Source: an uncultured Roseburia sp. (GTDB lineage Bacteria; Bacillota_A; Clostridia; Lachnospirales; Lachnospiraceae). From it: DNA of 13,099 nucleotides. The stretch spans positions 1-13,099 of the forward strand of contig CAAEAE010000004.1 of assembly GCA_900753715.1 (NCBI GenBank), in the 5' to 3' direction. Of this stretch, positions 126 to 13,099 are shown in pieces. The notes beneath the pieces were generated by a model, which saw only the letters and a list, made by a program, of their open reading frames with translations, did not search any database and was not told where the DNA came from. The first letter of the stretch is position 1; each line of letters starts with the position of its first letter. A program made the position numbers and the translations under genes.

Positions 126-1919
126 CTATTCAATCAGACCGCTCTCCCGCAGAAGAAGCTCAATGTCCGTTCCGTGAACCTTTCGCAGCAAAACTTTTAA
201 CATTTCCTTTTCCTTAAACGAAAGTTTTACATCTGTGATTGGTTTCTTGTCGATGGCATAATAGCAGGCACGTAAGAGTTCTCTCACATCGTACTTGCTG
301 CCCCAGACCTCCGGCACACCGCGGTCAATATCAAGCAGCGTGTATACCGATTCCATACCGGTACGCATTGAGTACTCGATGGTAAAAATGGTGTCGCGCG
401 GCGTTTCCGCAAACTGTCCCAAAAATGCAAAGTTCACTGCGCCATCCGGCACGACGTGCGGACGGTCCTCATTTTTACGCGGCTGGAAAAAGGCATTGAT
501 ATACGGCATGAAGCAGGTCGTCGTGTTGCAGGCATCCTTTGCAAGCTTATCAATTTCATTTTCCGGGATTCCGATATGGTAAAGCCACTCGCGGCAGACC
601 TCCTCACCGGTGCAGTCCCGCATCGCCTTTTTCACGTAATTTCCTTCCCGGTTCGTATTCAGAGAATACAGCCAGACGAGAACCATATTCTTATCCTGTG
701 ATTTAAACTGCGGCTGGCGGTTAATCGTCCAGGAAAGATACCAGTTGTCAGTGCTGTCCTTGACCGTCACAATTCCTCCGGTTGTTACTTTTCCTGCACG
801 CGGGTCACGCTTACAGATTTTCATGATGTGCTCAATCACTTCTTCATTTGATGTTGCAACCGTCGCACTCATCCAGTTTGTCGCATCAATATTGCTGCAA
901 AATGCATCCGGATTTCCGAATTCGCCATGCTCTGCCTGCGCTGCAATTGCCTTCCACATATCCCAGGACTCGCCATATCCATCCTTTAACTTTGATAAAT
1001 CCGGCTGATGCGTCTGGTCTCCATAGCAGGAAGAATCCGTACAGCAGCCATTTGTGATAAAGACCAGATCATCCTCAATCAAATCAATTGCCTGCTCTTT
1101 CCCGTCCTTCACATACAAAATCTGCTTTGCAATCTTTTTGTCACCGACCGTCTCAATGATGACATTTTTTACATCCATGCCATACTCAATCTGAACACCA
1201 TGAGATTGCAGATAGTTTACAAGCGGCAGAATCAGGCTCTCATACTGGTTTAATTTTGTAAAACGGAGCGCACTGAAATCCGGCAGTCCGTCAATATGAT
1301 GGACATAACGGCACAGATACCGCTTCATTTCCAGGGCACTTGACCAGCGCTGGAATGCAAACATCGTCTGCCAGTAAAGCCAGAAATTCGTTTTCCAGAA
1401 AGAATCCGGAAGTACATCCGAAATCTTTTTGCCCTCCAGCTCTGTTTCCGGTGTAATAAAAAGTCTCGAAAGCGCCTGCGCCGACTCCTTATCCAGGTTG
1501 AATTTCTTGTCAGTGTGCGCATCTTCCCCGCGTTCCACCGTGGCACGGCAGAGGGAATAGTTCGGGTCATGCTTGTTCAGCCAGTAATATTCATCCAGCA
1601 CGGAAACGCCCGGGGTCTCTAACGACGGCACATCGCGGAACATATCCCACATTACCTCAAAATGGTTGTCCATCTCACGTCCGCCACGCATAAAGAATCC
1701 TTTCGTGACGTCCTTCCTGCCATCGCAGCTGCCGCCGGCAAGTTCTAACTTCTCAAGAAGATGAATATGCTCCCCTTTCATCTGACCATCGCGGACAAGG
1801 TAAAATGCTGCCGTTAAACCGGCAAGTCCTGTACCGATGATGTATGCTGATTTTTTGTCCACATCCTTTGGTTTTTCCGGGTGTGCGAATGATTCGTAAG
1901 TTCCTGCAGAATAGTACAT
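126..1919 (-). CDS. ohyA: Oleate hydratase (FAD-dependent, myosin-cross-reactive antigen family)
   Basis: Adds water across the cis-9 double bond of oleic and related unsaturated fatty acids to give 10-hydroxy fatty acids; in gut Firmicutes and staphylococci this detoxifies host or dietary fatty acids. The 597-residue length is normal for the family. A Rossmann FAD motif, IIGTGLAG, lies at residues 27-34. The GGREMDNHFE segment at 79-88 contains Glu82, matching the catalytic glutamate of staphylococcal OhyA, and Tyr201 also falls at the position reported as functional there. No signal peptide or membrane segment is seen, so it should be cytosolic or peripherally membrane-bound. The ATG at 1919 has a GGAGG 8 bases upstream. 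It is on the same strand as the TetR gene, from which a strong hairpin separates it, so it probably has its own promoter. Identification is very secure; the exact substrate range is not visible. Confidence 0.95.
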   Translation of the reverse strand: MYYSAGTYESFAHPEKPKDVDKKSAYIIGTGLAGLTAAFYLVRDGQMKGEHIHLLEKLELAGGSCDGRKDVTKGFFMRGGREMDNHFEVMWDMFRDVPSLETPGVSVLDEYYWLNKHDPNYSLCRATVERGEDAHTDKKFNLDKESAQALSRLFITPETELEGKKISDVLPDSFWKTNFWLYWQTMFAFQRWSSALEMKRYLCRYVHHIDGLPDFSALRFTKLNQYESLILPLVNYLQSHGVQIEYGMDVKNVIIETVGDKKIAKQILYVKDGKEQAIDLIEDDLVFITNGCCTDSSCYGDQTHQPDLSKLKDGYGESWDMWKAIAAQAEHGEFGNPDAFCSNIDATNWMSATVATSNEEVIEHIMKICKRDPRAGKVTTGGIVTVKDSTDNWYLSWTINRQPQFKSQDKNMVLVWLYSLNTNREGNYVKKAMRDCTGEEVCREWLYHIGIPENEIDKLAKDACNTTTCFMPYINAFFQPRKNEDRPHVVPDGAVNFAFLGQFAETPRDTIFTIEYSMRTGMESVYTLLDIDRGVPEVWGSKYDVRELLRACYYAIDKKPITDVKLSFKEKEMLKVLLRKVHGTDIELLLRESGLIE

Positions 1920-1958
1920 AATGAAAACCTCCTCGTCTCAGATTTCTGTTCTGATTTC

Positions 1959-1964
1959 ATTATA
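1959..1964 (-). promoter_or_regulatory. Putative -10 box for ohyA
   Basis: A perfect TATAAT on the minus strand, 39 bp upstream of the oleate hydratase start codon and downstream of the hairpin at 1994-2032. I do not see a good -35 box at the usual distance, which suggests either a weak promoter or one that depends on an activator. Confidence 0.4.
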
Positions 1965-1993
1965 TCCAGATTCGCAGAGTTTACTATAAACAG

Positions 1994-2032
1994 AAAGAAC
2001 TGCCTGATAAAAGACTTATCAAACAGCTCTTT
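1994..2032 (-). terminator. 17-bp hairpin between the TetR gene and ohyA
   Basis: Arms 1994-2010 and 2016-2032 pair along all 17 positions (three G-U pairs in the minus-strand RNA) around a 5-nt loop, starting 12 bp after the TetR stop codon. The 3' arm is T-rich and runs into more T, as in an intrinsic terminator. It would uncouple ohyA from the TetR gene. The inner part (2016-2039) also forms a separate inverted repeat, TTATCAAA/TTTGATAA, so an operator role cannot be excluded. Confidence 0.6.
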
Positions 2033-2043
2033 TTGATAAAAAT

Positions 2044-2598
2044 TCAGACTTTAAAGCGGGACAGTGCCTTCGGAATAGAACCTTTTATTAAAACGGCAAG
2101 CCGCTCCACAATGTCCTCCGGGTTCTCCTTCATGTCATCCTTAATCCAGTCCAACATCAGCCCGACAAAAATATACGAGTACACCTGTGCAATAAATTCG
2201 CGGTCTTCTTCCCGCACCGTAATTCCTTCCGCTTCCTCATTAATCACGCCAAGCAGTAGATTGTCCACAAGCGGCTTTAAATATTTTTCCACCTGTTCTC
2301 TGTGAACGCAGCGGTACACGTTCATGATAAACGGCTTATTCTCCAGCACGGCCTCAAATATCTGCAAAAATCCCTGCTGCCAGGTATCATACGTTTTCTT
2401 TTCTTCCAGTGCCTTGCGCGCATCCTCCAGGCACGACCATTCCACCAAATCATAAATATCCTTGAAATGGTAATAAAATGTCATGCGGTTTATCCCGCAA
2501 TCCTCTGTAATATCGTTGATGGTAATCTTCGTCAACGGCTTTTTTAACAGCAAATTTTTTAATGACTGCTCAAGTGCACGCTTTGTAATCTGCGACAT
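2044..2598 (-). CDS. TetR/AcrR-family transcriptional regulator
   Basis: A ligand-responsive repressor type with an N-terminal TetR helix-turn-helix at about residues 20-48; INDITEDCGINRMTFYYHFKD is characteristic, with the recognition helix around GINRMTFYYHF. The rest is an all-helical ligand-binding and dimerisation domain, and total length is 184 residues. The start is placed at the ATG at 2598 because AAGGAG lies 9 bases upstream; a longer frame beginning with GTG would start inside that ribosome binding site region. The gene is directly upstream of the oleate hydratase gene on the same strand, and TetR proteins often sense fatty acids or acyl-CoA, so control of ohyA is a reasonable inference, but no matching operator pair is established. 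The C-terminal domain resembles the DhaS-like subgroup, which is a weak guide to ligand. Confidence 0.88.
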   Translation of the reverse strand: MSQITKRALEQSLKNLLLKKPLTKITINDITEDCGINRMTFYYHFKDIYDLVEWSCLEDARKALEEKKTYDTWQQGFLQIFEAVLENKPFIMNVYRCVHREQVEKYLKPLVDNLLLGVINEEAEGITVREEDREFIAQVYSYIFVGLMLDWIKDDMKENPEDIVERLAVLIKGSIPKALSRFKV

Positions 2599-2635
2599 TG
2601 GTGTGCTCTCCTTCCGTTTCACCGTCCATAAAATT

Positions 2636-3376
2636 TCAGCAATTATCTGCTTCTAAATTCTCAATAATATGTATCAAATCCTTAATAGATTCTCCCGCTT
2701 CAAGAATTTCCTTTAACTTCATTTCTACCTTTAAATAGGATATCTGTTCCGGAATCATGCCATCGGCGACACCCGGATATTGATTTTTGAGATTATCAAT
2801 CATTGTCTTTACAATGCTCTTATTGATTACTTTTGCATAATTCGTTCTGCAATAATCCTCTATGTCTGTTATGACTGTCTCATAAAAATGCTTATCATCC
2901 GGTTCCACAACACCATGGAACACGGTTTCGCCATACACTAAAATCCGGTATGAATTCTTTTCCAGATTACAATTGTCTCTAAATCTGAGTATCGGGAGAA
3001 GAAGTCCGTTTTCTCTCGCCAGCCGCTTTCTGCTTTCCTGAACGAGCGAAGTCTTTAAGCCTTCACAAATCAGTTCCACCAGTGTCTCAGAAAACTCGAT
3101 TACCAACGGTTCTGCAATCAAATTTGTTTTTATTTCTGCATCTTCCATTGGATTGCCGCTTTCTACCACCTTTTCCGAAATTCCCAATAAGGTGTCTGCA
3201 CTTATTTCCAATACGGAACAGATTCCTTCTATGAGTGAAACGTCCGGCAATCCGTTGCCTCTTTCCCACTTACTTACCGCTTGTGGTGTCACTCCAAGTC
3301 TTGATGCAAATTCATCCTGTGTCATTTTCCTGCTCTGCCTGTACTGGCAAATCACTTCACCTAAATCATAGCCCAT
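2636..3376 (-). CDS. XRE-type HTH protein fused to an FlhA (FHIPEP) C-terminal-like domain
   Basis: 246 residues. Residues 5-62 form a classic Cro/CI helix-turn-helix (MTQDEFASRLGVTPQAVSKWERG at 18-40). From about residue 90 the protein matches the cytoplasmic domain of the flagellar/type III export protein FlhA: a segment with RFRDNCNLEKNSYRI at 131-145 corresponds to the conserved IRIRDN-x-L-x(3)-YRI stretch, and a helical end with ESIKDLIHIIENL at 229-241 corresponds to the VSIRDL-x-x-IL-x-x-L stretch. The membrane half of FlhA is absent and a middle part of the cytoplasmic domain appears to be shortened. No membrane segments are seen. The ATG at 3376 has GGAGG 8 bases upstream. The TetR gene starts 37 bp after its stop, so the two may be co-transcribed. 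The HTH call is secure; the FlhA relationship is from recognised motif pattern. Its role (ligand or partner sensing by the FlhA-like part) is unknown. Confidence 0.8.
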   Translation of the reverse strand: MGYDLGEVICQYRQSRKMTQDEFASRLGVTPQAVSKWERGNGLPDVSLIEGICSVLEISADTLLGISEKVVESGNPMEDAEIKTNLIAEPLVIEFSETLVELICEGLKTSLVQESRKRLARENGLLLPILRFRDNCNLEKNSYRILVYGETVFHGVVEPDDKHFYETVITDIEDYCRTNYAKVINKSIVKTMIDNLKNQYPGVADGMIPEQISYLKVEMKLKEILEAGESIKDLIHIIENLEADNC

Positions 3377-3459
3377 AAATCAGTCCTCCAATCATTTTTT
3401 GTAATTTCATGATACCAATACATAGACTCTGCGTAAAGCAACCGACTGTTGGCATACGC

Positions 3460-4005
3460 TCAACGAGCATTTATCGCAGTATACTTATCCATTTCTTTTC
3501 TATCTATACTGCATATTACCATATCATTTCTTTCTCCTGTAAGAAAATTCATTCTTCTGCCTCTTAAAACAGCCTCTTTTTTAAATCCCAATCTCTGTAA
3601 TATTTGCTCTGATGCTTTATTACTCGCATTGTATTTGGCTTCAATCAGGTACATGCCATATTCTGTAAAATATATATGCAAAAGATATTTGAGTGCTTCA
3701 TATGAATATTTATTTCCCTGGTATTTTTCACCAATAACATACCCCACTTCGCCCACTTTCAATGGTTCATATGGTATGTCAAATGTAACATATCCCACGA
3801 TATCATTACTTTCTTTTTCAACGAGAACCCACGCATTTTTTTGTCTGGACATACTTTCAACAAAATTTTTCATTTGGACAATATCCGTCATAGGGTAACC
3901 TATTATGTACCTTCCCAGATTCGTGTCTTTGCCCCAGCTTTCCATACACTTTTCCACATCATCCGGTAAAAAATGTCGCATTATAAGCCTGTCTGTTTCA
4001 TACAC
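3460..4005 (-). CDS. GNAT-family N-acetyltransferase (RimJ/RimL-like)
   Basis: Transfers an acetyl group from acetyl-CoA to an amine; the substrate is not visible. The protein is 181 residues, typical of this family. It opens with ETDRLIMRHFLPDD (3-16), the usual N-terminal strand of RimJ/RimL-like enzymes. The acetyl-CoA pyrophosphate-binding motif A is around YVIGEKYQGNKYSYEA (89-104). The closing motif with Asn129, Ser132 and the Gly-Phe pair at 140-141 is also present. The start is probably the GTG at 4005 with GGAG 11 bases upstream; an ATG at 4001 is out of frame. It stands alone on the minus strand between the XRE gene and the membrane protein gene. Possible roles include ribosomal protein or small-molecule acetylation, including drug inactivation. 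Confidence 0.9.
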   Translation of the reverse strand: MYETDRLIMRHFLPDDVEKCMESWGKDTNLGRYIIGYPMTDIVQMKNFVESMSRQKNAWVLVEKESNDIVGYVTFDIPYEPLKVGEVGYVIGEKYQGNKYSYEALKYLLHIYFTEYGMYLIEAKYNASNKASEQILQRLGFKKEAVLRGRRMNFLTGERNDMVICSIDRKEMDKYTAINAR

Positions 4006-4058
4006 TATTTTATTATCTCCTCAAATTCCCTTGCAAATTTCTCGGATGTATAAATGCG

Positions 4059-4802
4059 TCAATTGTAAGAATGATATACTCCATTTATCCCAATCTGATA
4101 CAGGTCCGCCAACGACTCCGTCCAGCTTAAAAACATTTCCCAGCCATCATTTAATATGTCTGAACGAAATACAATCTTATCGTCTCTGGTCTTTAATACC
4201 AGTTCCTGGCGTTTCTTCTTTGTCACATAGTGATGCTCTATGCTCCTTACCTCACTCCATAAAATATTCTTTTTCCGAAAAACGCCTGATACGACAATTT
4301 TAGTTCTCGTGTAATACACCTTATAACCACAGTACCGAAAAATCACGTATATACTGTAAACATGAAATACGACTGCATACACAAAAAAACCAAGCGCGGT
4401 CTTCCTATCCTGCATCAAATCTGCTATCAAAGCCTGTGGATTTTCCTGATATTCGGGCCACGACATCACAACCATCATAATATCGATAAGAATCGTGGCA
4501 ATTGGCAGCATAAAATAAAGAGGACTGCACTTTAACAGCTGATAGGTTTCACCTGCGAAGCAATCCGTCTCATTTTTCCTGTCCCATATCTTTTTTTCGA
4601 TTCCCGTACAGCAATCGACTAATATCAGAAGCACAGAATTGACCAATACTATGATTCCTGTTTGCATTGCAATTTTTTTTACCATCGCTGCATCTTCACC
4701 CATGGCTGCCATGGCAATGGCAAATGCTACATTTGCGATGACAAATACAATCACAAAGAGTAAAATCAGACTCCCTGTTGAAACATTATGATTACGGTTC
4801 AT
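4059..4802 (-). CDS. Four-helix membrane protein with C-terminal PH-like domain, function unknown
   Basis: I do not recognise a named function. From the ATG at 4802 (AAGGA about 9-10 bases upstream) the protein has 247 residues. Four hydrophobic segments lie at about 11-33, 46-63, 94-113 and 136-156. The remaining 90 residues are soluble, beta-rich and charged (YYTRTKIVVSGVFRKKNILW around 163-182, then a Lys-rich turn and EMFLSW), like bacterial PH-like domains that follow membrane helices. The frame extends 20 codons further to 4862, but that start lacks a usable ribosome binding site and a TATACT-like -10 box lies there on the minus strand. Position suggests it is chromosomal flank left of the tuf-tail array. 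DUF6560-like membership is possible but not verified. Confidence 0.65.
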   Translation of the reverse strand: MNRNHNVSTGSLILLFVIVFVIANVAFAIAMAAMGEDAAMVKKIAMQTGIIVLVNSVLLILVDCCTGIEKKIWDRKNETDCFAGETYQLLKCSPLYFMLPIATILIDIMMVVMSWPEYQENPQALIADLMQDRKTALGFFVYAVVFHVYSIYVIFRYCGYKVYYTRTKIVVSGVFRKKNILWSEVRSIEHHYVTKKKRQELVLKTRDDKIVFRSDILNDGWEMFLSWTESLADLYQIGINGVYHSYN

Positions 4803-4923
4803 TGGCTTTTCCTTTTCGTCTTTTGCATCTACTGTTGACAGTTCACTTTCTAAGTATAACATAACCTTTGTTGTTCTGCATTATGGAGTTTAGGATACCG
4901 GTAGGCATATCAACGCAACACGT

Positions 4924-4953
4924 AAAAAAGCTCCCAGTGAAAACCCTGGAAGC
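4924..4953 (-). terminator. Intrinsic terminator linked to tuf tail copy 1
   Basis: On the minus strand, GCTTCCAG pairs with CTGGGAGC (one G-U) around an 8-nt loop and is followed by six T. It sits 25 bp past the tuf stop codon of copy 1, the arrangement expected for the natural end of a tuf transcript. Confidence 0.75.
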
Positions 4954-4969
4954 CTTAATTTTACTGGAT

Positions 4970-5004
4970 AATATTTAATTACTCGATAACGGCAGCAACA
5001 CAAC
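4970..5004 (-). repeat. tuf 3'-end fragment, copy 1 (probable att remnant)
   Basis: On the minus strand, 4979-5004 reads as the last seven residues CVAAVIE plus stop, close to the EF-Tu ending RVATVIE. The 21-bp stretch 4970-4990 is identical to 11011-11031 at copy 2, including 9 bp beyond the stop codon. Homology stops after 26 bp of coding sequence, so this copy is shorter or more decayed than the other two. It is the leftmost of three and probably marks the outer end of the accessory region. Confidence 0.65.
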
Positions 5005-5045
5005 TGTCAATGTCACAAATTGTATTGTTTTTATTAATTCTAATG

Positions 5046-5071
5046 ATGTATTATTTTATGTAATAATACAT
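5046..5071. repeat. Perfect 10-bp inverted repeat upstream of the DUF6061-like gene
   Basis: ATGTATTATT at 5046-5055 and AATAATACAT at 5062-5071 with a 6-bp spacer, ending 91 bp before the start codon of the following gene. It is entirely AT except for one G-C pair, so as a hairpin it would be weak. It could be an operator or a recombination-related site at the inner left end of the element. Confidence 0.45.
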
Positions 5072-5162
5072 TTTGTGATTATTGTATCTATTTTCAAAAT
5101 TTTTCAAGCCCCCAAAAACCATGGACTTTTTACCTCCAATTCAAATGAAAGGACTTGTATCA

Positions 5163-5402
5163 ATGAAATTGATACACACAAGATATAACCCGATGCACAA
5201 CAGCATCGACATTAACTGCTATAACGGCTACCTCCTCCAGATTGACTGTAATCAGGTAAAAGCCGAGATACGACCCACTCCTAATTCACAGAGATACCTA
5301 AATGCTCTAGCGATTGATAATCCGCTGGAATATGCCAGGCTTACGCTGGATGGCGAGATGCAGGTATGGGTGGATGCAGAGGATAGTTTGGAAGCGTTTT
5401 AA
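5163..5402 (+). CDS. Small DUF6061-like protein, function unknown
   Basis: 79 residues beginning MKLIHTRYNPMHNSIDINCY. The pattern of an opening YNP segment, a 'DG/NG-x-x-x-x-IDC' strand (NGYLLQIDCNQVKAEIRPT) and a late NPLEYARLTLDGEMQVW segment is like the small clostridial DUF6061 family. The ATG at 5163 is chosen over the ATG at 5082 because AAAGGA lies 9 bases upstream of it and the family begins there. It has its own terminator and faces the Cys/His-OB gene convergently. No enzyme motif, signal peptide or membrane helix is visible. These small proteins are common on clostridial accessory DNA; I have no evidence for a role here. Confidence 0.75.
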   Translation: MKLIHTRYNPMHNSIDINCYNGYLLQIDCNQVKAEIRPTPNSQRYLNALAIDNPLEYARLTLDGEMQVWVDAEDSLEAF

Positions 5403-5409
5403 TGCACGA

Positions 5410-5454
5410 ATATCGGATACTCATTTTAAGAAGTATCCGATATATTCTTTTCTT
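5410..5454 (+). terminator. Intrinsic terminator of the DUF6061-like gene
   Basis: ATATCGGATACT (5410-5421) and AGTATCCGATAT (5432-5443) pair perfectly over 12 bp with a 10-nt loop, followed by a T-rich tract. It starts 8 bp after the stop codon. It lies between two converging genes; the minus-strand exit lacks a good T run, so it mainly serves the plus strand. Confidence 0.85.
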
Positions 5455-5486
5455 ACTGTATCATATCTTTTACAATTTCCCGCCAG

Positions 5487-6368
5487 CTACATTTGTTGAC
5501 CAGATTCTCCATGCACAATTTGCTTGTACGTTTTATTATTTACTAAAACTCGATTTGGTGAAATAACTGAAACATTAACCCCATTTTTATCCCTCTTCTT
5601 TTTTGTTATGTCTCCGTATGCAATAACAAAAATTTTATCAGGGTATTTTTCTACTAATTCTTTTATCTTTGATATGTATATTTCAAATTCATCCATCCCA
5701 GCTGACAATTCATTCGAATAGAATGCCTCTGGAAAAGCAATGTTTACGGTACTATGCTTTGTTGCCAAGTTAAAATATGCATATTTTCTCTTATTCTTAT
5801 CCTCTTCTAACTGAACATTACTTATAAATCCGTAAACCGATTTTCTACATCCAATATCATCAGTACTTATATATTCAGCATCCTCATAGTGAATTCTTGG
5901 CATACATTCACTCTTGTTGCCGTTTTCATCACTTTCAAATACTGCAGCTTCATCCTCGCCAATTACATCGACCTCCATACTACCATTTGGTGGATCAATT
6001 ATATCTTCGTCAGAATATTGTCTAAGTAATCCCTCCATTTTTCTTTGTAATCGGCGCAAAATAGTTTCTTCACTCAGTTCTATGCTTTCATAATAAGCAC
6101 TAAGCTTTTTTCTTCCCATTTTGCCCTTATAATCAACATGATAAGGACAACCCTCTTTGTGTAAGTGCCCCTCTTTATTCCATGTGCTAAAGAATTTAAC
6201 ATTATTTTTTCTTTCTGTAAATTTGATTTTAGCCGGACAACCCTTTATACAAGTCAAATACCCTTTGTATTTGGTTTCATAGTCATTTTTATCTAAGTCT
6301 CCGCAATAAATTTCCTTTTTAAAATCTCCTTCGACATTTGACTTTGCAAACATAATTTTTTTTGCCAT
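5487..6368 (-). CDS. Cys/His-cluster protein with C-terminal OB-like domain, linked to IetAS
   Basis: I cannot assign a named family. From the ATG at 6368 (AAAGGAG 10 bases upstream) it has 293 residues. Residues 37-80 hold a probable zinc site: Cys40-x3-Cys44, then His68/His70, Cys74 and His77, spaced like CoiA-type or zinc-ribbon nucleic-acid modules. A Lys/Arg-rich helix (RRLQRKMEGLLRQY, 105-118) follows, then an acidic linker. From about residue 177 a beta-rich region (VYGFISNVQ, KYAYFNLATKHSTVNIAFPE, FVIAYGDI, NVSVISPNRVLV) looks like an OB fold. No signal peptide is seen. It follows the protease gene on the same strand after 121 bp with no terminator between them, so it may be co-transcribed. 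A role in recognising nucleic acid for the ATPase/protease pair is a guess based on context and architecture. Confidence 0.7.
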   Translation of the reverse strand: MAKKIMFAKSNVEGDFKKEIYCGDLDKNDYETKYKGYLTCIKGCPAKIKFTERKNNVKFFSTWNKEGHLHKEGCPYHVDYKGKMGRKKLSAYYESIELSEETILRRLQRKMEGLLRQYSDEDIIDPPNGSMEVDVIGEDEAAVFESDENGNKSECMPRIHYEDAEYISTDDIGCRKSVYGFISNVQLEEDKNKRKYAYFNLATKHSTVNIAFPEAFYSNELSAGMDEFEIYISKIKELVEKYPDKIFVIAYGDITKKKRDKNGVNVSVISPNRVLVNNKTYKQIVHGESGQQM

Positions 6369-6489
6369 GCACCACAAACTCCTTTCTCCCACAAAATTGT
6401 TACTCACAATTTTTGATTTGTAATAACATTCTTAATAAGTTACGCACTTTTGTTTATTACACACCTATAATAACGCATAACAATTCTAA

Positions 6490-8730
6490 TTATTCAAACG
6501 TAATCTCTTCCTCGGCTTTAACATAAACATCAACCTGTGTATGCACATCAAGTCTGGAAACAACCCATCCTCTCATCATACACATCTTTATAAAGTCATC
6601 TATTCTGTTTTCACCATTCATTTCTCGCAAAGTTACAACAACACCAAATTGCAGTCCTCTTCCGGCTTTCGGATCAAGTCTTTCTTTTGTTTTAATACTT
6701 AGTCCCCACATTCCCGATTGATACGCCTTGCGTGGACGACCATTCTCTTTCAACGCTTCGCTAATATGCTTGACATTATCCCACTTACGATACAATTTTC
6801 TCGCATCTTCTTCGTAGATTGTATTGAGACCTTCTTCTGCTTGTTTATTATAATCTATAGCTTTAATTACTGCTTTTCCCTTCTGCTCCGCAATTCTTCC
6901 AAAATGAATATCCATCTCCGTTGATGTATAATCAACACCTTGGTTTCGATCGCTTTGCGGAAAATAAGCAAGTGTAGCCTTTGCGAAGAAAGGATGTGCA
7001 TTCATATCTTGTGGAACCGGAATATTATAAGTATATACTTCATACTCATCTATGCTTCCAGACATAATAAATCTTATCTCATCCTCTCGAGAATACAAAA
7101 TGTCCTCTATCCTTCTTGGTACAATGCCATATCCTTTTTCATATTTAATAGTATCTTGTCGATCCCATCCTGCCGCAGAATCAATTATTAAAGCTTTTGC
7201 CACTTCACGACTTAAACCCATAACATGTATAAGATACGCCATTTTACGAGTTATCCAAGGTGCCGCAAACGACGTTCCGGTTACAGCTGCCTTACCCAAA
7301 GGTTCACAAACAACAATTTTGTCAGGACCATCTCCACCATAGTAACAAACATCAGGCTTATAGAAGAAAGATAGTACTGGACCTCTACGTGTATAAGATG
7401 CCGGTTTACCGTTAAAATCCACCGCATTCACAACCAATGAATTAAGCGAATCTGCCGGAGCGCCAATTTTATCAACATCCGAGTTCTTCTTTTTATTTGT
7501 ACCTGCAACTATAAAAACCACATCATACTCGTATTGAATTCTGTCCAATTCAGCAGCTTCAGGGGATATGAAATTTGCATCAATTTCCATTGCAGAACCC
7601 AATGATAAATTCCACACTTTTATATCACGATTCTTTCGAACAATATCACGGATTTGCTTTAATATTGCGAACGAACTAAATCTGCCTGCTGTAGCTACTC
7701 CAAAATGACGAACCCTGAAATTACCACAATTATCTTGCAAGTTTGGATTGAAAGACGGACCGTCAACAATAATAGATGTTACAGCCGTACCATGAAAATA
7801 ATCTTCTGTATGCAATTCAATATCATCACTGATACATCTATGATACTCTACCCAGTCACCAAAATATACTTTCTTATCAAACTGGGTATCGATAACTCCT
7901 ACAATTGGCTCATTTCCAGGCTTTCCAATCGATAATTGTTCTTCATTGCCCTTACTATCTGTAATATCATAGTCAATCTCTGCAAAATCCTTAACACTCA
8001 TTGCAATCAAATAAGGAGCTTTATCACATAAAATGTCTATCTCTTCTTTTTCCATTCGCAAAGTTGTTTCATCTATCATTTTAGCATTAATCATATTAAT
8101 ACCTAATCTGCCTAACAACTCTGTTGTGTCAACACCTGTTTTATATATAGTTACAATAGACTGCTCTCTCGCTGTCTTAGTTGCACAATCAATACGAAAA
8201 TTCTCCACATAAAAACAATCTACAAGTGTTTTCAGAAACGAACTTTTACTCATAATGCTATCATTATATATGCCTGAATTAATACGTTCTGTATCATCAC
8301 TTGAAATATTTCCATTATAAAAATTTTGGATAGTAGCTGCACACTTATCCAAAAGCACGATTGATTTCTCCAAAGAATCAATAGCAAGAAAGTAGGTAAA
8401 TACATGCTTTTTTACCCATTCATTCTTATCATTATAGCCCTCCGAGAACTTTGAGCCTCTTACAGATTGGTTAGGATGTTTTCCTCCATCTGACAGCAGA
8501 AGTTGAATTCTATTACTTTTTGCTACAACTTTTCTGTAATGTACACTAACCAGGGCTCCATTGATTGTCTTTTCCTTATTCCAAAATGAAATAATATCTT
8601 GTAACTGATTTTCCAATTTCAAAACATGCTCTGCACTAACAGATTTCCCCTTTTGTATATTAACCGGTCCAAAACCACTAGGTGCCTTTCGCTTTTGAAA
8701 TTGACCTTTTAATTGCAAAATATTATTCAT
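6490..8730 (-). CDS. ietS: IetS-type subtilisin-like serine protease (S8 peptidase)
   Basis: A cytoplasmic subtilase that partners an AAA+ ATPase; ATPase-subtilase pairs of this layout are the IetAS system, first described for plasmid exclusion in Agrobacterium and later as anti-phage defence. From the ATG at 8730 the protein has 746 residues. Numbering from an upstream in-frame GTG (8736), the catalytic Asp283 is in VGVIDTQFD, His315 in the FHGTAVTSI segment, the oxyanion Asn414 in VAGTNKKKN, and Ser489 in GTSFAAPW; the active site is therefore complete. The N-terminal 275 residues and C-terminal 200 residues are family-specific. No secretion signal is present. The ATG at 8730 is 10 bases from AAAGGAG, whereas the GTG is only 4 bases away. 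It overlaps the ATPase gene by 8 bp, implying translational coupling. Subtilase identity is secure; the defence role is inferred. Confidence 0.88.
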   Translation of the reverse strand: MNNILQLKGQFQKRKAPSGFGPVNIQKGKSVSAEHVLKLENQLQDIISFWNKEKTINGALVSVHYRKVVAKSNRIQLLLSDGGKHPNQSVRGSKFSEGYNDKNEWVKKHVFTYFLAIDSLEKSIVLLDKCAATIQNFYNGNISSDDTERINSGIYNDSIMSKSSFLKTLVDCFYVENFRIDCATKTAREQSIVTIYKTGVDTTELLGRLGINMINAKMIDETTLRMEKEEIDILCDKAPYLIAMSVKDFAEIDYDITDSKGNEEQLSIGKPGNEPIVGVIDTQFDKKVYFGDWVEYHRCISDDIELHTEDYFHGTAVTSIIVDGPSFNPNLQDNCGNFRVRHFGVATAGRFSSFAILKQIRDIVRKNRDIKVWNLSLGSAMEIDANFISPEAAELDRIQYEYDVVFIVAGTNKKKNSDVDKIGAPADSLNSLVVNAVDFNGKPASYTRRGPVLSFFYKPDVCYYGGDGPDKIVVCEPLGKAAVTGTSFAAPWITRKMAYLIHVMGLSREVAKALIIDSAAGWDRQDTIKYEKGYGIVPRRIEDILYSREDEIRFIMSGSIDEYEVYTYNIPVPQDMNAHPFFAKATLAYFPQSDRNQGVDYTSTEMDIHFGRIAEQKGKAVIKAIDYNKQAEEGLNTIYEEDARKLYRKWDNVKHISEALKENGRPRKAYQSGMWGLSIKTKERLDPKAGRGLQFGVVVTLREMNGENRIDDFIKMCMMRGWVVSRLDVHTQVDVYVKAEEEITFE

Positions 8731-9772
8731 CTTCACTCATCTCCTTTAACTCTCTAGCAACACTGCTCTTAGGTATTTTACTCAAAATTTCAATTTCTCT
8801 TATGGTGAATCTCTGTTCTTGCAGCTTTTTAATATCTTCTGGTTTTTCACCTGTAATTGCATAGTACAATCTTCTAAAATAGTCCAATCCATCATCAGGA
8901 TTACTAAATGCTACTGCTGTTTTTATCAAGTTCTTCAAATCTCCCGGATATGGTAATGGTGACAGCAACATCATTATTTTTCTAAATAATCTTATATCCT
9001 TCTTCGCCAAGTTAAATTTGGTTAGAAACTTATTCAAATATTCTTCCGAAATATCTATTAAATCATCTTGGGAATATCTATTAAAATCAATAACCGAATC
9101 GAATCGTCTAATCAATGCTTTATCAAAATAGTCATATAGATTTGTGGTTGCCACCAATACTATTCTTTCATCCATACGATCCATACTCTTAAGCAATGAA
9201 GATGTTGCTCGTCCCATCTCTCGTAAATCATTGACATTTGTTCTATCTAAAGCAACGGCATCTATCTCGTCAAACAATACTATGACTTTTTCCGGATGAA
9301 CAAAGCTATTTATCTCCTTAAACAGTTCAGACATATTCTTCTGTGTCTGGCCCAATTTACTGTCAATAATGGCTGAAAAATCAACCATATATATTTCTCT
9401 TTCTAAAATTCGCGCTAGCTGTTTAACAGCCTCCGTCTTACCTGTTCCCGGTGCTCCCTGAAATAAAAATTTATTTATTCCTGCATTATGCGCTATTGCA
9501 TGCACAATTCCTAATAAATCCTGAGTGATGTCATCAGGCAACCATAAAGGCTCGCCTATTTTTTCAACTTTTTCAAACATGGCAGATTCATTCTCGCTCA
9601 TTTGTGGAATAAATGTATTGGCATTTGACATCAATGCCATAATATATTCGGCAAGTTGATAGTCTCCTGCTTGGTCAAAATCTTTTGCTATTTCATAAGC
9701 TTCACTTCGAAAACCAGCATCATTATTCTCCGCATGATATTTAATTAAATTAATAACGCTCTTCTTTTTCAT
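8723..9772 (-). CDS. ietA: IetA-type AAA+ ATPase
   Basis: 349 residues with one AAA+ module: Walker A GAPGTGKT at 106-113, Walker B VIVLFDEIDA at 163-172 (Asp168, Glu169), sensor 1 ATTN at 208-211 and an arginine-finger segment IRRFD at 221-225. An alpha-helical N-terminal part (1-75) precedes it. The last 30 residues (FTIREIEILSKIPKSSVARELK, 322-343) look like a small helix-turn-helix, possibly for binding DNA or the partner. The ATG at 9772 has AGGAG 8 bases upstream. The stop overlaps the protease start by 8 bp. In IetAS systems the ATPase is thought to recognise the trigger and control the protease; here that is inferred from the pairing. It could instead be an unfoldase-like chaperone for the protease in another pathway. 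Confidence 0.88.
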   Translation of the reverse strand: MKKKSVINLIKYHAENNDAGFRSEAYEIAKDFDQAGDYQLAEYIMALMSNANTFIPQMSENESAMFEKVEKIGEPLWLPDDITQDLLGIVHAIAHNAGINKFLFQGAPGTGKTEAVKQLARILEREIYMVDFSAIIDSKLGQTQKNMSELFKEINSFVHPEKVIVLFDEIDAVALDRTNVNDLREMGRATSSLLKSMDRMDERIVLVATTNLYDYFDKALIRRFDSVIDFNRYSQDDLIDISEEYLNKFLTKFNLAKKDIRLFRKIMMLLSPLPYPGDLKNLIKTAVAFSNPDDGLDYFRRLYYAITGEKPEDIKKLQEQRFTIREIEILSKIPKSSVARELKEMSEDE

Positions 9773-9805
9773 ATGATCCGCTCCTAATTTCTTTTTGTTA
9801 TGTAC

Positions 9806-9834
9806 ACTTTAACATATTGGGACATTTTTGTCAA
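9806..9834 (-). promoter_or_regulatory. Promoter of the ietAS operon
   Basis: On the minus strand a perfect -35 TTGACA (9829-9834) and a -10-like TAAAGT (9806-9811) are separated by 17 bp. Transcription would begin near 9799, giving a leader of under 30 nt before the ATPase ATG. One direct repeat lies in the spacer and overlaps the -35 box. Confidence 0.65.
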
Positions 9835-9845
9835 TATTGGGACAT
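9814..9845. repeat. Two 12-bp direct repeats over the ietAS promoter (putative operator)
   Basis: ATATTGGGACAT occurs at 9814-9825 and again at 9834-9845, start to start exactly 20 bp, about two helical turns, so both copies face the same side of the DNA. One copy fills the -10/-35 spacer and the other abuts the upstream edge of the -35 box, a layout typical of repression by a cooperative DNA-binding protein. The cognate regulator is not evident in the element. Confidence 0.6.
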
Positions 9846-9908
9846 ATATTCATCTTGACTTTTAATATTTCTGATGCTATATTGGTTATAGGAACACAAA
9901 ACTCCAAT

Positions 9909-9949
9909 AAAAAAAGAAACCAGCATCTAACGAATAGAATACTGGTCTC
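9909..9949 (-). terminator. Strong intrinsic terminator ending the small RNA
   Basis: Stem of about 14 bp with one bulge (9949-9916) and a seven-T run at 9915-9909 on the minus strand. It has no such run on the plus strand, so it acts leftward, toward ietA but upstream of the ietA promoter. Confidence 0.75.
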
Positions 9950-9971
9950 CTGCGTACAAATGTACTATCCC
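9909..9971 (-). ncRNA. Putative ~63-nt small RNA upstream of ietA
   Basis: A self-contained transcription unit on the minus strand. A promoter at 10007-9978 would start RNA near 9971. The RNA would contain a small hairpin GUAC-AUUU-GUAC and then a long hairpin with arms GAGACCAG (9949-9942) and CUGGUUUC (9923-9916), extended inward by UAU/AUG and CUA/UAG pairs with one bulged U and a UUCGU loop, followed by seven U. The 63 nt have no ribosome binding site and no convincing reading frame. It could be a free small RNA, an antisense-type regulator, or a leader whose terminator is sometimes read through into ietA. Family not recognised. Confidence 0.5.
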
Positions 9972-9977
9972 GAGAAT

Positions 9978-10007
9978 ATTGTATCACAGATTAGTTCCTA
10001 TACTCAA
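9978..10007 (-). promoter_or_regulatory. Promoter of the putative small RNA
   Basis: On the minus strand TTGAGT (10002-10007) and TACAAT (9978-9983, five of six consensus bases) are 18 bp apart, with TG three bases upstream of the -10 box. It is divergent from the DUF3892-like gene. Confidence 0.5.
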
Positions 10008-10084
10008 GCAGAACATTTATTCGTTACGGTTTCTCTATTATTGTTTACATAGATTACAATATTATTTTAAAAGGAGAAACAAAA

Positions 10085-10360
10085 ATGATAGCAACAACAA
10101 TCAAAATGAAAACCGGTTGTGCCAATTCAACCAAAACAACAGAAATCGATCAAATTTATATCGAGGACTGTACAAATCCTGGATATTATAAAAAGGCCGA
10201 TGTATATGACCATCTCAAGTCTCATCCCAACAGTATTTATGTTAATATTCCACCTTATCCGGATTTAATCCCTGCATTAAGTTCTAATTATGAAAAATAT
10301 GTTCGTTCCGAACCTAATGACACGCCATCAGATAATCTTCTCAAATTACCGAGAATCTGA
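10085..10360 (+). CDS. DUF3892-like small protein
   Basis: 91 residues. The C-terminal end KYVRSEPNDTPSDNLLKLPRI fits the DUF3892 signature (Tyr-x-Arg-[ST] followed by SDNLL-x-LP), and the start MIATTIKMKTG and the middle (a short helix containing VYDHLKSHP, then NSIYVN) agree with its small alpha-beta layout. The usual central Gly-rich tract is less clear. GGAG lies 8 bases before the ATG and a textbook terminator follows, so it is a real, independently transcribed gene, divergent from the small RNA and ietAS. No signal peptide or membrane helix is visible. The function of DUF3892 is unknown; position inside the element makes it cargo, possibly associated with the defence operon. Confidence 0.8.
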   Translation: MIATTIKMKTGCANSTKTTEIDQIYIEDCTNPGYYKKADVYDHLKSHPNSIYVNIPPYPDLIPALSSNYEKYVRSEPNDTPSDNLLKLPRI

Positions 10361-10395
10361 TACTAAATGGTTACATCATAAGCATGTAAACAAAG

Positions 10396-10427
10396 GAAGT
10401 AGATGCCCAACACATCTACTTCTTTTT
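10396..10427 (+). terminator. Intrinsic terminator of the DUF3892-like gene
   Basis: GAAGTAGATG (10396-10405) and CATCTACTTC (10413-10422) pair perfectly over 10 bp around a 7-nt loop, followed by five T. It lies 35 bp after the stop codon. Confidence 0.88.
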
Positions 10428-10446
10428 CTTATATCCCGATACTCAC

Positions 10447-10760
10447 TCATATTCTTTTGTAACCTATAACGAACGAATTCAAGATATTCATATATTTTGT
10501 CATACTTAATTCTATTTTATCTTCGCCGAACCACCCATGTATTAAATTACTAGCTGAACAAAACTATTGAGATGTAATTCAAAAAATCTCATTTTTTATT
10601 GTTTCAACATGATCAACAAAATACATCTCACAAATTGAACGTAGCCCAAATAATTATACAAGACACCTATTGCATAGTATTTCTATATTTACTGGAGAAT
10701 CTTTTCTACTAAACAATTGAATAGCATACTTGTATTCTCCTTCACGGAAATGCATTCCGC
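10447..10760 (-). pseudogene. Decayed coding remnant with in-frame stops
   Basis: Reading one minus-strand frame from about 10758 down to a TGA at 10447 gives protein-like stretches (FREGEYKYAIQLFSRKD; YFVDHVETIKNEIF; IHGWFGEDKIELSMTKYM) interrupted by three stop codons but no frame change. The first part resembles a TPR-like helix, which is weak evidence. No ribosome binding site or start is visible. I read it as a dead gene between the DUF3892 terminator and tuf copy 2, but a chance frame in AT-rich DNA is possible. Confidence 0.3.
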
Positions 10761-10780
10761 ATATCTACCTTTCCATATAA

Positions 10781-10951
10781 ACCCGTTATAATACTTATAC
10801 ACCCGATGTGACTGCCCCGACAGAACCGTTGGAAAAACCAAAGCCACAGGGCACAAAGTTCAAAGTTGTAAGTCCAAAGTATAAAACAAACCCACAGCAA
10901 GTCCACGAGAATGACCTAAGCCTGTGTACCAGCTTTTCCGGACGCACATAA
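10781..10951 (+). pseudogene. Possible C-terminal gene fragment, Pro/Lys-rich
   Basis: An open plus-strand frame of 56 codons without a start, ending in TAA at 10949-10951. It reads like a real C-terminus (PTEPLEKPKPQGTKFKVVSP) and is clearly richer in G+C than the DNA around it. It ends directly against the terminator of tuf copy 2. It could be the cut-off end of a mobile-element gene whose front was lost. Family not recognised. Confidence 0.3.
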
Positions 10952-10986
10952 AAAAGCTCAACCCTTTGTAAACAAGGAGTTGAGTC
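10950..10986 (-). terminator. Intrinsic terminator linked to tuf tail copy 2
   Basis: On the minus strand GACTCAAC-type and GTTGAGC-type arms pair (core CTCAAC/GTTGAG, continued imperfectly inward) and are followed by six T. It lies 34 bp after the tuf stop codon of copy 2 and is unrelated in sequence to the terminators of copies 1 and 3. Confidence 0.75.
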
Positions 10987-11010
10987 CATGAATTCATTTA
11001 ATATGCAAAA

Positions 11011-11072
11011 AATATTTAATTACTCGATAACAGTAGCAACACGACCTGAACCTACAGTACGTCTACCCTCAC
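11011..11072 (-). repeat. tuf 3'-end fragment, copy 2 (probable att site)
   Basis: On the minus strand 11072-11020 encodes EGRRTVGSGRVATVIE plus stop, the EF-Tu C-terminus with one Gly-to-Arg change. It matches copy 3 at 50 of 53 positions; two of the three differences are synonymous. Homology to tuf stops abruptly at 11072, and the following DNA is unrelated to the EF-Tu coding sequence. Confidence 0.85.
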
Positions 11073-11146
11073 ATTTGTGAGATCCTTAAAATCTCATTAT
11101 TTTCTTATAAATTTTCCACGCTATATTTCTATTATCTTCATTTTTT

Positions 11147-11164
11147 TAGTATCAAAATAGTATC
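11147..11164. repeat. Paired 7-bp direct repeats, integrase arm-site candidates (copy 2)
   Basis: TAGTATC at 11147-11153 and 11158-11164, start to start 11 bp, one helical turn. They lie 74 bp from the tuf tail on the side expected to be element DNA. Tandem short repeats beside the core are typical of tyrosine-integrase arm-binding sites. Apart from these, the stretch 11073-11253 holds only a weak GAGAT/ATCTC inverted repeat. Confidence 0.5.
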
Positions 11165-11253
11165 ACAACCAGATTTCTAACTATTATAACCAAAACATGC
11201 GTCCCACTATAATAGCAGGCGTTTAGTCTTTCTCCAGAAAGTCTTGTCCGCGG

Positions 11254-12615
11254 TTATTTTCCAACCCGAATTTTCTTAAAACTTACAGCAAAGAACAGCG
11301 TTTCCGCAAGTCCTGTAATTCCCCATGAGAAGATATACAGAAGATACAGTGATGAAATTGTCTGAAAATGTGCAAATACTGTATAAATCCAGATAATACG
11401 GAAGACGCAGGAACCCAGGATAACGATGATGGTAGGCGGGATGCTTTTTCCGATACCTCGGGATGCGGCGATGCTGCCGTCCATAAAGCAGCTGAATGCA
11501 TAGCTGAACCCCATGATACGGATTCTCTGCATACCGGCATCAATCACTGCCGGTTCCGTAGCAAACAGAGAAAGAAACTGCGGGCCAAGTACAAGGAGCA
11601 GTCCGCCCAGGATTGCGCCGGAGATGAAAGCATATGTAAGACTGACTCCATAAGATTTCAACATTCGTTTTTTATTTTGGGCACCCCAGTTCTGACCGAT
11701 AAAACTTGCACATGCAGTATAAAAAGCAAACATAACGTTATAAATCAGGGAATCAGCATTTGCAGCAGCTGCATTTCCGGAAACCATCACTGCGTCAAAA
11801 GAGTTGACGCCAGTCTGCACAAACAGGTTTGCAATGGCAAAGATTCCGTTCTGAAGACCGGTAGGGATACCAAGCATGAGAACTGCTTTGCATGCCTTGG
11901 GGTGCAGGCGGATTTTTCGCAGAGATACTTTGCATTCATCGGTTCTTCTGAGAAGATGGATCATCACCAGAGAAGCAGAGACATACAGAGAAATTGCACT
12001 GGCTGTTGCAACCCCTGCGGCTGCCATACGACAGACAATAACAAAAAACAGATTCAGAAGAACATTAATCACACCAGCGATGGAAAGATAGATTAATGGT
12101 CGTTTCGTATCGCCCCGGGCACTTAATACGCCGTTGCCGAAATTGTATACGGCCATTGCAGGCATTCCCAGGGAATAGATTTTCATATATAAAATAGCCT
12201 GATCAATAAACTCCGGCTTTGTGTTCATCATGGACAGCATCTGCTCTGAAAACAGAAGGCAGATGGCACAGACGAGCAGACCTGTGATTGCGCACAAAAG
12301 AAGAGAAGTATGAATCGTTTCTTCTGTGCCTCTCTTATTTCCGGCACCCAGTTCGTGAGCTATGCGGACATTGACACCGGCACCCATTCCAATGAGGATT
12401 CCGGTAAACAGAGTAACCAGTAAAGTTGTGGACCCGACGGCACCTAGTGCCAGGTAATCTGCAAACCTTCCCACAACGGCAACATCGCTTAAGTTAAAAA
12501 GAACCTCCAACACCTGTGAACCCATAAGTGGAAGGCTGAAGAGGAGTATATTTTTCCAGAGAGAGCCTGTCGTCATCTCTATGGAGCGGGATTTCTTTTC
12601 TTTATTTTCACACAT
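11254..12615 (-). CDS. MATE-family efflux transporter
   Basis: A 453-residue, twelve-helix multidrug and toxin extrusion protein of the inner membrane, which exports cationic or aromatic compounds in exchange for Na+ or H+. Length is standard. The opening MTTGSLWKNILLFSLPLMGS (14-33) and the following LFNLSDVAVVGRFADYLALGAVG, together with the GIGMGAGV-like loop (GILIGMGAGVNVRIAHELGAG), are characteristic of the NorM/DinF-like group. The second half repeats the pattern around GIPTGLQNGIFAIANLFVQ and FIGQNWGAQN. The ATG at 12615 has GAGG about 8 bases upstream and a perfect TATAAT lies 43 bp upstream. Its base composition is less AT-rich than the ietAS genes, in line with a separate origin. 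It is the only gene between tuf tail copies 2 and 3. Substrate cannot be told. Confidence 0.93.
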   Translation of the reverse strand: MCENKEKKSRSIEMTTGSLWKNILLFSLPLMGSQVLEVLFNLSDVAVVGRFADYLALGAVGSTTLLVTLFTGILIGMGAGVNVRIAHELGAGNKRGTEETIHTSLLLCAITGLLVCAICLLFSEQMLSMMNTKPEFIDQAILYMKIYSLGMPAMAVYNFGNGVLSARGDTKRPLIYLSIAGVINVLLNLFFVIVCRMAAAGVATASAISLYVSASLVMIHLLRRTDECKVSLRKIRLHPKACKAVLMLGIPTGLQNGIFAIANLFVQTGVNSFDAVMVSGNAAAANADSLIYNVMFAFYTACASFIGQNWGAQNKKRMLKSYGVSLTYAFISGAILGGLLLVLGPQFLSLFATEPAVIDAGMQRIRIMGFSYAFSCFMDGSIAASRGIGKSIPPTIIVILGSCVFRIIWIYTVFAHFQTISSLYLLYIFSWGITGLAETLFFAVSFKKIRVGK

Positions 12616-12657
12616 AAAATTGCCTCATAAAATTTATAAAAAATCTCTTTATCCGGA

Positions 12658-12663
12658 ATTATA
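12658..12663 (-). promoter_or_regulatory. Putative -10 box of the MATE gene
   Basis: A perfect TATAAT on the minus strand 43 bp before the MATE start codon. No good -35 is visible 16-18 bp upstream; a TTTACA is present but 22 bp away. Confidence 0.4.
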
Positions 12664-12713
12664 CAATACTCTGTTAAAAAAGATTTGTAAAGATGGGAAA
12701 TGGCGAACATACA

Positions 12714-12747
12714 GAAAAAAACCCCGGAAACCTAACGGTCCCGGGGT
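12714..12747 (-). terminator. Intrinsic terminator linked to tuf tail copy 3
   Basis: On the minus strand ACCCCGG pairs with CCGGGGT, with an inner ACC/GGT pairing, and is followed by seven T. It lies 65 bp past the tuf stop codon of copy 3. A short AGACAC/GTGTCT inverted repeat sits between the two. Confidence 0.85.
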
Positions 12748-12811
12748 ATCTTGCACTTAGACACACAGTGTCTTACAGCACTAATTTTATATGATTATCT
12801 GTAATCAGTGA

Positions 12812-12865
12812 TTACTCGATAACGGTAGCAACACGGCCTGAACCTACAGTACGTCCACCCTCACG
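12812..12865 (-). repeat. tuf 3'-end fragment, copy 3 (probable att site)
   Basis: On the minus strand this encodes REGGRTVGSGRVATVIE plus stop, the standard EF-Tu C-terminus of Gram-positive bacteria. The upstream EF-Tu codons are missing: beyond 12865 the DNA no longer encodes EF-Tu. It is thus a tail only, like copy 2, and not the end of an intact gene. Confidence 0.88.
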
Positions 12866-13099
12866 TTATTTGAATACCGTGTTTCTGCATATTTTCTATG
12901 CTTTTGGGTGGCAAAATCCGCATAAAACTGCTGTTTTTACACAGTGTATTTTTATTTGCTTAAGTTCTTGGCACCGTTTTGGCACCGTAGGTACTTCATC
13001 TTCCTTTACTACTATAAACTTGAATTGAGATTTCATGTATTCCAAGGGATTTAATAATTGTTATATTTTATTATCAAATATCTCTCAAGCCTTTGAAAA
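12866..13099. mobile_element. Left end of a third tuf-integrated element (inferred)
   Basis: DNA to the right of tuf copy 3 has no gene I can support. It contains the paired repeats at 12968-12987 and AT-rich sequence to the window edge. By analogy with copy 2 this is the inner end of another element whose body, and perhaps its integrase and the intact tuf gene, lie beyond the window. Confidence 0.4.
12968..12987. repeat. Paired 9-bp direct repeats, integrase arm-site candidates (copy 3)
   Basis: TTGGCACCG at 12968-12976 and 12979-12987, start to start 11 bp, about 100 bp to the right of the tuf tail. Same spacing and side as the pair near copy 2 but a different sequence, as expected if the two elements use different integrases. 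Confidence 0.55.

Follow-up and report, generated by a model that had tools for sequence, protein, structure and literature searches.

In parts of PMC5357655, integrative mobilizable elements (IMEs) of streptococci are described as targeting the 3' ends of rpsI, rpmG and rplL and as accreting in tandem with decayed elements. Decayed elements bounded by attachment (att) sites appear as CIMEs in passages of PMC5704250, and passages of PMC6563490 report casposons of Thaumarchaeota that are integrated in the EF-2 gene. Here we describe a locus at which the target would be tuf, the gene encoding EF-Tu. The DNA studied, referred to as the window, is a stretch of 13,099 nucleotides from an uncultured Roseburia sp. 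(contig CAAEAE010000004.1 of assembly GCA_900753715.1), in which an initial annotation had marked three displaced tuf tails as traces of serial integration. We conclude that the window very probably belongs to an array of integrative elements, now decayed, which accreted in tandem at the 3' end of tuf. Tandem accretion as such is already known; for tuf as the att site of such elements we found no report in the open-licence literature, which was searched by titles and the starts of abstracts and, in several topics, over a small part of the matches. The searched passages of PMC12904643, PMC5704250, PMC6563490, PMC5357655 and PMC12884075 do not mention tuf, and in passages of PMC3189940, PMC10654056 and PMC3956370 it figures only as a duplicated or marker gene.

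In the mechanism that we propose, a tyrosine integrase encoded by the element would recombine attP with tuf at the point where its last 51 nt begin. A new coding end (16 codons and the stop) and a terminator would come with the element, so that EF-Tu would stay intact; the old tuf end and its terminator would be pushed to the far side of the element, and later elements would enter the regenerated end. Strand exchange, excision and transfer of the elements are presumed. Three integrations would be recorded in the window: a segment with an IetAS-like gene pair between tails 1 and 2, a segment with a MATE-family transporter between tails 2 and 3, and an element of the F1 type (one of the flank families described below) whose distal end lies to the right of tail 3. 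The leftmost tail would be the oldest, because later elements enter the regenerated tuf end. The intact tuf presumably lies off the right edge of the window.

Orphan tuf ends in the window and in related genomes

All three tails lie on the minus strand and, as had been annotated, none of them runs on into the remainder of tuf. Tail 3 (12812..12862), which we read as the distal attachment site of the element to its right, is an orphan 51-nt tuf 3' end of 16 codons and a stop and translates as EGGRTVGSGRVATVIE followed by the stop. Tail 2 (11020..11070) has the same full length and carries a single Gly-to-Arg codon change. Both match a degenerate pattern of the EF-Tu C-terminus (11020-11075 and 12812-12867), and the direct repeats D1 and D2 mark the same two places. 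A chance origin was rejected, as the pattern had 0 matches in 200 dinucleotide shuffles. Tail 1 turned out weaker than annotated: sequence comparison found only ~26 nt (4979..5004) to be tuf-like, corresponding to an eroded end of ~8 codons and the stop. The terminator into which it runs is matched by the intact tuf end of genome G092 (tail and terminator together: 81% over 86 bp, E 1e-16). We therefore regard tail 1 as a genuine tuf end and probably as the one that belonged to the chromosome originally.

The three tails were also said to have their own unrelated terminators. The terminators do differ from one another, though each resembles DNA that follows tuf in other genomes. Tail 3 is followed on the minus strand by a terminator of the kind found after tuf in Blautia-like genomes (12715..12748, terminator scan and alignment), tail 2 by a hairpin with a T run (10950..10982, recognised by eye and absent from the terminator-scan list) and tail 1 by a native-type tuf terminator (4925..4957, recognised by eye and similar to those of L177, L178 and G092). 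The neighbouring DNA matches related loci as well: 10932-11072, comprising tail 2 and the DNA to its left, aligns at 86% over 141 bp with the intact tuf end of G034 (L110), 11019-11176 aligns at 74% with the F3 distal end of L004, L055 and L062, and 12717-12990 aligns at 75.6-76.4% with the F1 distal ends of L058, L037, L120 and L127.

Beyond tails 2 and 3 we found direct repeats of period 11 on the minus strand. The one belonging to the element right of tail 3 (12968..12988, length 10) lies 126 bp before the core, is equalled by 0 of 200 shuffles and has the F1 motif of complete Blautia-type elements; its repeat CGGTGCCAA also occurs 124-125 bp before the core in L116, L120, L121, L123, L126, L127, L129 and L149. 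The repeat upstream of tail 2 (11147..11165) is of the F3 type and lies 95 bp before the core, with 2% of 200 shuffles as good. In line with what is established for tyrosine integrases, we take the period-11 repeats to be the arm sites expected of such an enzyme. With the scans used no tRNA gene was found in the window, and a tRNA gene as the integration target was rejected.

We then scanned contigs with a pattern that accepts only the tail, excludes intact tuf and fixes the first codon of the tail; tails of other lengths or codons (e.g. in G056) are missed and the counts are lower bounds. One stretch was found in viral contigs and 81 in genome contigs, several of the 81 sharing their genome with another. 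The records are titled Lachnospiraceae, Blautia, Coprococcus, Roseburia, Eubacterium, Dorea and similar, with a few given only as 'bacterium', Clostridia or Clostridiales. Together with one phage record (MT839393) this gave 85 tails to be read. CGT precedes 79 of them, which the pattern does not require, and the flanks beyond the tails sort by eye into recurring families.

EF-Tu was sought in 50 tail-bearing genomes and found in 39, as a single copy in 38 and as two copies in one. Wherever a tail shared the contig of tuf it was located downstream on the tuf strand (35/35), at distances from 1.3 to 37.7 kb and with varying cargo. In 40 fetched stretches we counted 38 orphan tails on the tuf strand and none on the opposite strand. 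Successive entry at the tuf 3' end with cargo in between, as initially proposed, is supported by the position of the tails in relatives and by the F1 and F3 flanks and arms at the tails of the window. A fixed spacing with unchanging cargo would have spoken against this interpretation; what we observed instead was variation in both.

To gauge how common such tails are, 120 genomes were drawn evenly from the family, which yielded 87 tuf rows in 86 genomes. Fifteen rows were dropped: G013, G027 and G056, which had already been fetched and all have orphan tails, and 12 that were partial or near a contig end. From the remaining 72 rows 60 were fetched, several of the stretches being short. An orphan tail was present in 2 of the 60 sampled genomes, the other 58 having none in the stretch read, and in 2 more an integrase of the tuf type appeared just before the contig end. 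The other 56 showed one weak integrase match (23 bits) at 12.6 kb and otherwise none. Searches with the motif on the opposite strand and on shuffled sequence of the sampled stretches gave 0 matches. Most tuf sites read look empty, and occupancy looks patchy, as expected of mobile elements.

The tuf end and the integrases of complete elements

For one element, present in two genera, the bases themselves show that the tuf end which completes the gene is the copy brought by the element. A 9.4-kb element is ~99% identical in Blautia luti, Coprococcus comes and Blautia sp. P3087; between B. luti and C. comes the identity is 99.3% over 9,930 bp. The tuf genes of these two differ by 16% before the core (168/200 identical) and are identical from the core on (240/240). 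In windows of 40 bases we counted 34, 34, 36, 34 and 30 identities before the core and 40/40 in each of six windows from the core. The element therefore carries the final 16 codons and the terminator, which are identical although tuf before the core differs. Five other pairs of elements were compared, of which L123/L126 shows the same step at the core, from 192/200 to 240/240. Within a genome the intact and the orphan end differ on average at 4 of 51 nt (30 comparisons), with the same amino acids in 21/30.

Complete relatives share a common order, which in the orientation of tuf is: tuf end, terminator, XRE regulator, tyrosine integrase, a primase-like AAA_25 gene or a pair of zinc-finger and VapE genes, Mob_Pre relaxase, TnpV, cargo, distal end with arm repeats and orphan tail. 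The Pfam assignments of integrase, AAA_25, Mob_Pre and TnpV were made on one representative of each. The integrase of L131 (L131:8765-9982) matches PF00589, PF14659 and PF14657, and its relaxase matches PF01076 Mob_Pre at 2.1e-13. No conjugation apparatus was found among those genes of the L131-type element that were scanned, which are part of its open reading frames (ORFs). Judged by their gene content, the complete relatives look like IMEs. In L006, L041 and L064 the integrase is instead located ~130 bp before the orphan tail. A second layout with a different gene set, in which the integrase also stands beside the orphan tail, was seen in L115 and L143 (oriented about 640-1210 and 8240-9490). 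Direct repeats of period 11 were detected 123-126 bp before the core in 21 of the 31 distal ends tested, although for 3 of the 21 they were equalled by 6-12% of shuffles; in 15 of the 21 the same arm motif occurs near the proximal end.

The cargo was sampled as 108 proteins, one per family and at least 180 aa long, encoded between tuf and the outermost tail of the fetched stretches. The PADLOC and Pfam matches include, among those listed, type II methyltransferases, Vsr, TIR, Schlafen/AlbA domains and glycosyl hydrolases. L122 encodes a BsuBI/PstI-type restriction enzyme, and distant relatives of the MATE transporter of the window (20-24% identity) occur in several fetched stretches.

Could the main entrants be temperate phages rather than mobilizable elements? 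The record MT839393 is filed as a phage, and the viral contig L001 has phage-like ORFs by eye, with an F2-type flank and then a tuf tail at its end. The recurrent backbone, however, consists of integrase, primase-like gene, relaxase and TnpV; in MT839393 we recognised no phage structural gene by eye (no systematic search for structural genes was made), and L001 has no PF00589 match. We regard entry mainly by phages as very unlikely. L001 itself (IMG/VR contig 3300010280_000419, 1-11575) contains ORFs resembling phage tail and lysin genes by eye, followed by two to three serine recombinases, the F2-type distal flank and the tuf tail, which points to a phage, or what is left of one, inside or next to such an element. 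We rejected serine integrases as the drivers in general, as matches to serine recombinases occurred in few stretches.

The initial annotation held that a lack of integrases near tuf would speak against integration. We searched for integrases at E 1e-40 and obtained matches in 31 of the 36 genomes with a known tuf position. Most of these genomes had been picked for carrying tails, hence the counts test location and not prevalence. Of the integrases at least 50% identical to that of L131, 34/37 lie downstream of tuf on its strand, 1.0-40.6 kb away, and the remaining 3 are on contigs without tuf, whereas only 1/62 of the integrases below 50% identity lies downstream of tuf. In a tree, 16/17 other integrases were grouped (support 89/92) apart from 26 tuf-linked ones. 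The tree does not show a single origin of the tuf-linked integrases: 2 changes are needed, and a grouping with one change was present in 8% of bootstraps. A recombinase of L129 (12414-13772) that was first counted with the tuf integrases was set aside as a very long branch.

Cargo segments, left flank and alternative readings

The only gene recognised between tails 2 and 3 encodes a MATE-family efflux transporter (11254..12615, minus strand; PF01554 6.8e-51, TIGR00797). The segment keeps both cores and the distal arm, while genes for integration and transfer are gone. As neither an integrase nor a proximal arm was recognised in it, we read it as a decayed element.

Between tails 1 and 2 two adjacent ORFs on the minus strand, overlapping by 14 bases, encode an AAA ATPase resembling IetA (8723..9772, PADLOC 4.5e-38) and an S8 subtilase resembling IetS (6490..8736, PADLOC 3.5e-66). 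Both miss the NCBIfam equivalog cut-offs, with 99 of 510 bits for IteA and 176 of 900 bits for IteS, and the pair is a predicted anti-phage defence system. A third gene on the same strand (5487..6407, 306 aa) matched no family; its homologue, 85% identical in amino acids, adjoins IetAS in G092, and the protein is possibly a third component of the defence block. The whole block (5415..10564) aligns at 90% over 5.15 kb with DNA directly downstream of the intact tuf of G092 (L206 1249-5562). The IetA proteins of the two genomes are 97.7% identical, whereas their oleate hydratases are only 59% identical. On account of this difference the block has probably moved between hosts, and it sits at tuf in both. 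The defence and efflux cargo mentioned in the initial annotation lies in segments in which no integrase was found and that we read as decayed remnants.

Several observations weigh against accretion by integration. The window contains no intact tuf, and the scans used found neither an integrase nor a relaxase in it. A search of the 800 bp next to the proximal core of the MATE segment did not find the arm 8-mer, and neither end of the IetAS segment showed a recognisable arm repeat. Elsewhere, in 10/31 distal ends the script detected no repeat where one was expected (in 3 of these, from F3 elements, a shorter repeat is visible by eye), and 10 of the 45 tail rows in the 39 genomes are uninformative, the tail being on another contig or on one not shown to be shared with tuf; in G008 the locus of the tail shows no tuf where it would be expected were the contig shared. 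The low occupancy in the broader draw also counts here, as do the four other pairs of elements, which have different DNA after the stop and no step at the core. P3087 departs from the otherwise 99% identical element in the DNA behind the stop codon. Finally, in G092 no orphan tail was found within 20 kb despite IetAS directly behind tuf; homologous recombination may account for part of the spread, or the far end may have been lost in G092.

The last two cases bear on a different origin, in which the tails are partial tuf duplications that arose through homologous recombination or replication slippage and involved no site-specific integration. The DNA behind the stop codon in P3087 seems to have been swapped between cores, and together with G092 this makes it probable that tuf ends undergo homologous exchange. 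Behind the proximal tuf end of P3087 lies DNA of the distal type (L134, G017, oriented 260-410), which suggests a later exchange between tuf ends after integration. As a source of the tails, duplication is made unlikely by the 99% identical element with its boundary at the core in two genera together with the link between integrase and target; the CGT that the pattern did not ask for, the recurring flank families and the arms at a fixed distance also speak against it. As the pattern had fixed the first codon of the tail, any tails of different length would have escaped it. We consider duplication extremely unlikely.

Another question is whether segments without an integrase are decay products at all. 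They might be mini-elements mobilised in trans by the tuf-specific integrases of their neighbours, forming an integron-like cargo array at tuf. Small segments between cores, for which two recombinase models found nothing, fit this proposal: 1.4 kb in L114 (maltose acetyltransferase-like), 2.2 kb in L150 (Schlafen/AlbA) and 2.5 kb in L136 (sigma factor, arm motif at both ends), to which the two segments of the window can be added. The MATE segment has no proximal arm, however, L114 and L150 lack convincing repeats, and a 3.8-kb segment of L121, which has F1 cargo and distal end but neither the integrase nor the relaxase of F1, seems to have arisen by deletion. Overall we judge the proposal unlikely. 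The segment of L136 (G010, oriented 7368-9820), which encodes the sigma factor and an unknown 446-aa protein and in which no recombinase was found, is the best candidate for a mini-element that could be mobilised in trans. Equally improbable in our view is the wider proposal that the tuf 3' end serves across Lachnospiraceae as a docking port, where cargo segments bounded by tuf tails and without integrases would be captured and shuffled in trans by the tuf-specific integrase group, as an integron-like array that would also rewrite the last codons of EF-Tu and its terminator. We retain the tandem array of decayed elements as our reading of the window.

The DNA left of the array (126..4862, minus strand; profile searches) encodes an oleate hydratase, TetR, XRE and GNAT proteins and an unknown protein and is taken as chromosome, an older remnant being an alternative. 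The oleate hydratase is closest to those of genomes G386 and G068 (88% aa). In G255 its gene lies on the strand of tuf, 16.3 kb downstream, and in G386 and G056 it is not near tuf; synteny of this flank with tuf is thus weakly supported. The unknown protein (4059-4862) had no relative in the scan of genome contigs and was not found in 10 genomes with a related oleate hydratase in a search that had no positive control. The middle of the XRE-type regulator (2636-3376) matches Pfam FHIPEP with 67.8 bits (cut-off 29.1) but scores far below the cut-off of NCBIfam FlhA, an unusual domain match.

Implications and comparison with known systems

If our reading is true, an essential gene that is single-copy in nearly all genomes examined is a recurrent integration site in common gut commensals and has a dedicated group of integrases. 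The orphan 51-nt tails would be a signature for finding mobile cargo, here including restriction-modification and other defence-like genes. As tuf is used as a marker gene, it is also relevant that its 3' end and terminator can be of foreign origin. The integrases and their 51-nt site could become insertion tools in commensals that are hard to manipulate.

The gene pair of the window resembles the IetAS anti-phage system in its adjacent AAA ATPase and S8 protease, each with a PADLOC match, and differs from it in scores under the NCBIfam equivalog cut-offs and in the extra third gene, which is conserved beside the pair in G092. Casposons are another class of element. With those of Thaumarchaeota, as portrayed in parts of PMC6563490, our elements share the 3' region of an elongation factor gene as the target. 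The casposons are archaeal and target EF-2. The segments of the window resemble the CIMEs of PMC5704250, in the passages that cover them, as att-bounded segments that have lost genes for integration and transfer and stand in tandem with other elements. They differ in that the MATE segment has no recognisable proximal arm, so that two functional att sites are putative. Our elements also resemble the streptococcal IMEs, for which passages of PMC5357655 describe a tyrosine integrase, the 3' end of a conserved translation gene as the target, a mean size of ~10 kb, tandem accretion and an integrase beside the target or at the opposite end. In contrast to these, the target here is tuf, the hosts are Lachnospiraceae and their kin, and integrases at least 50% alike are found at tuf while more weakly related ones are found elsewhere.

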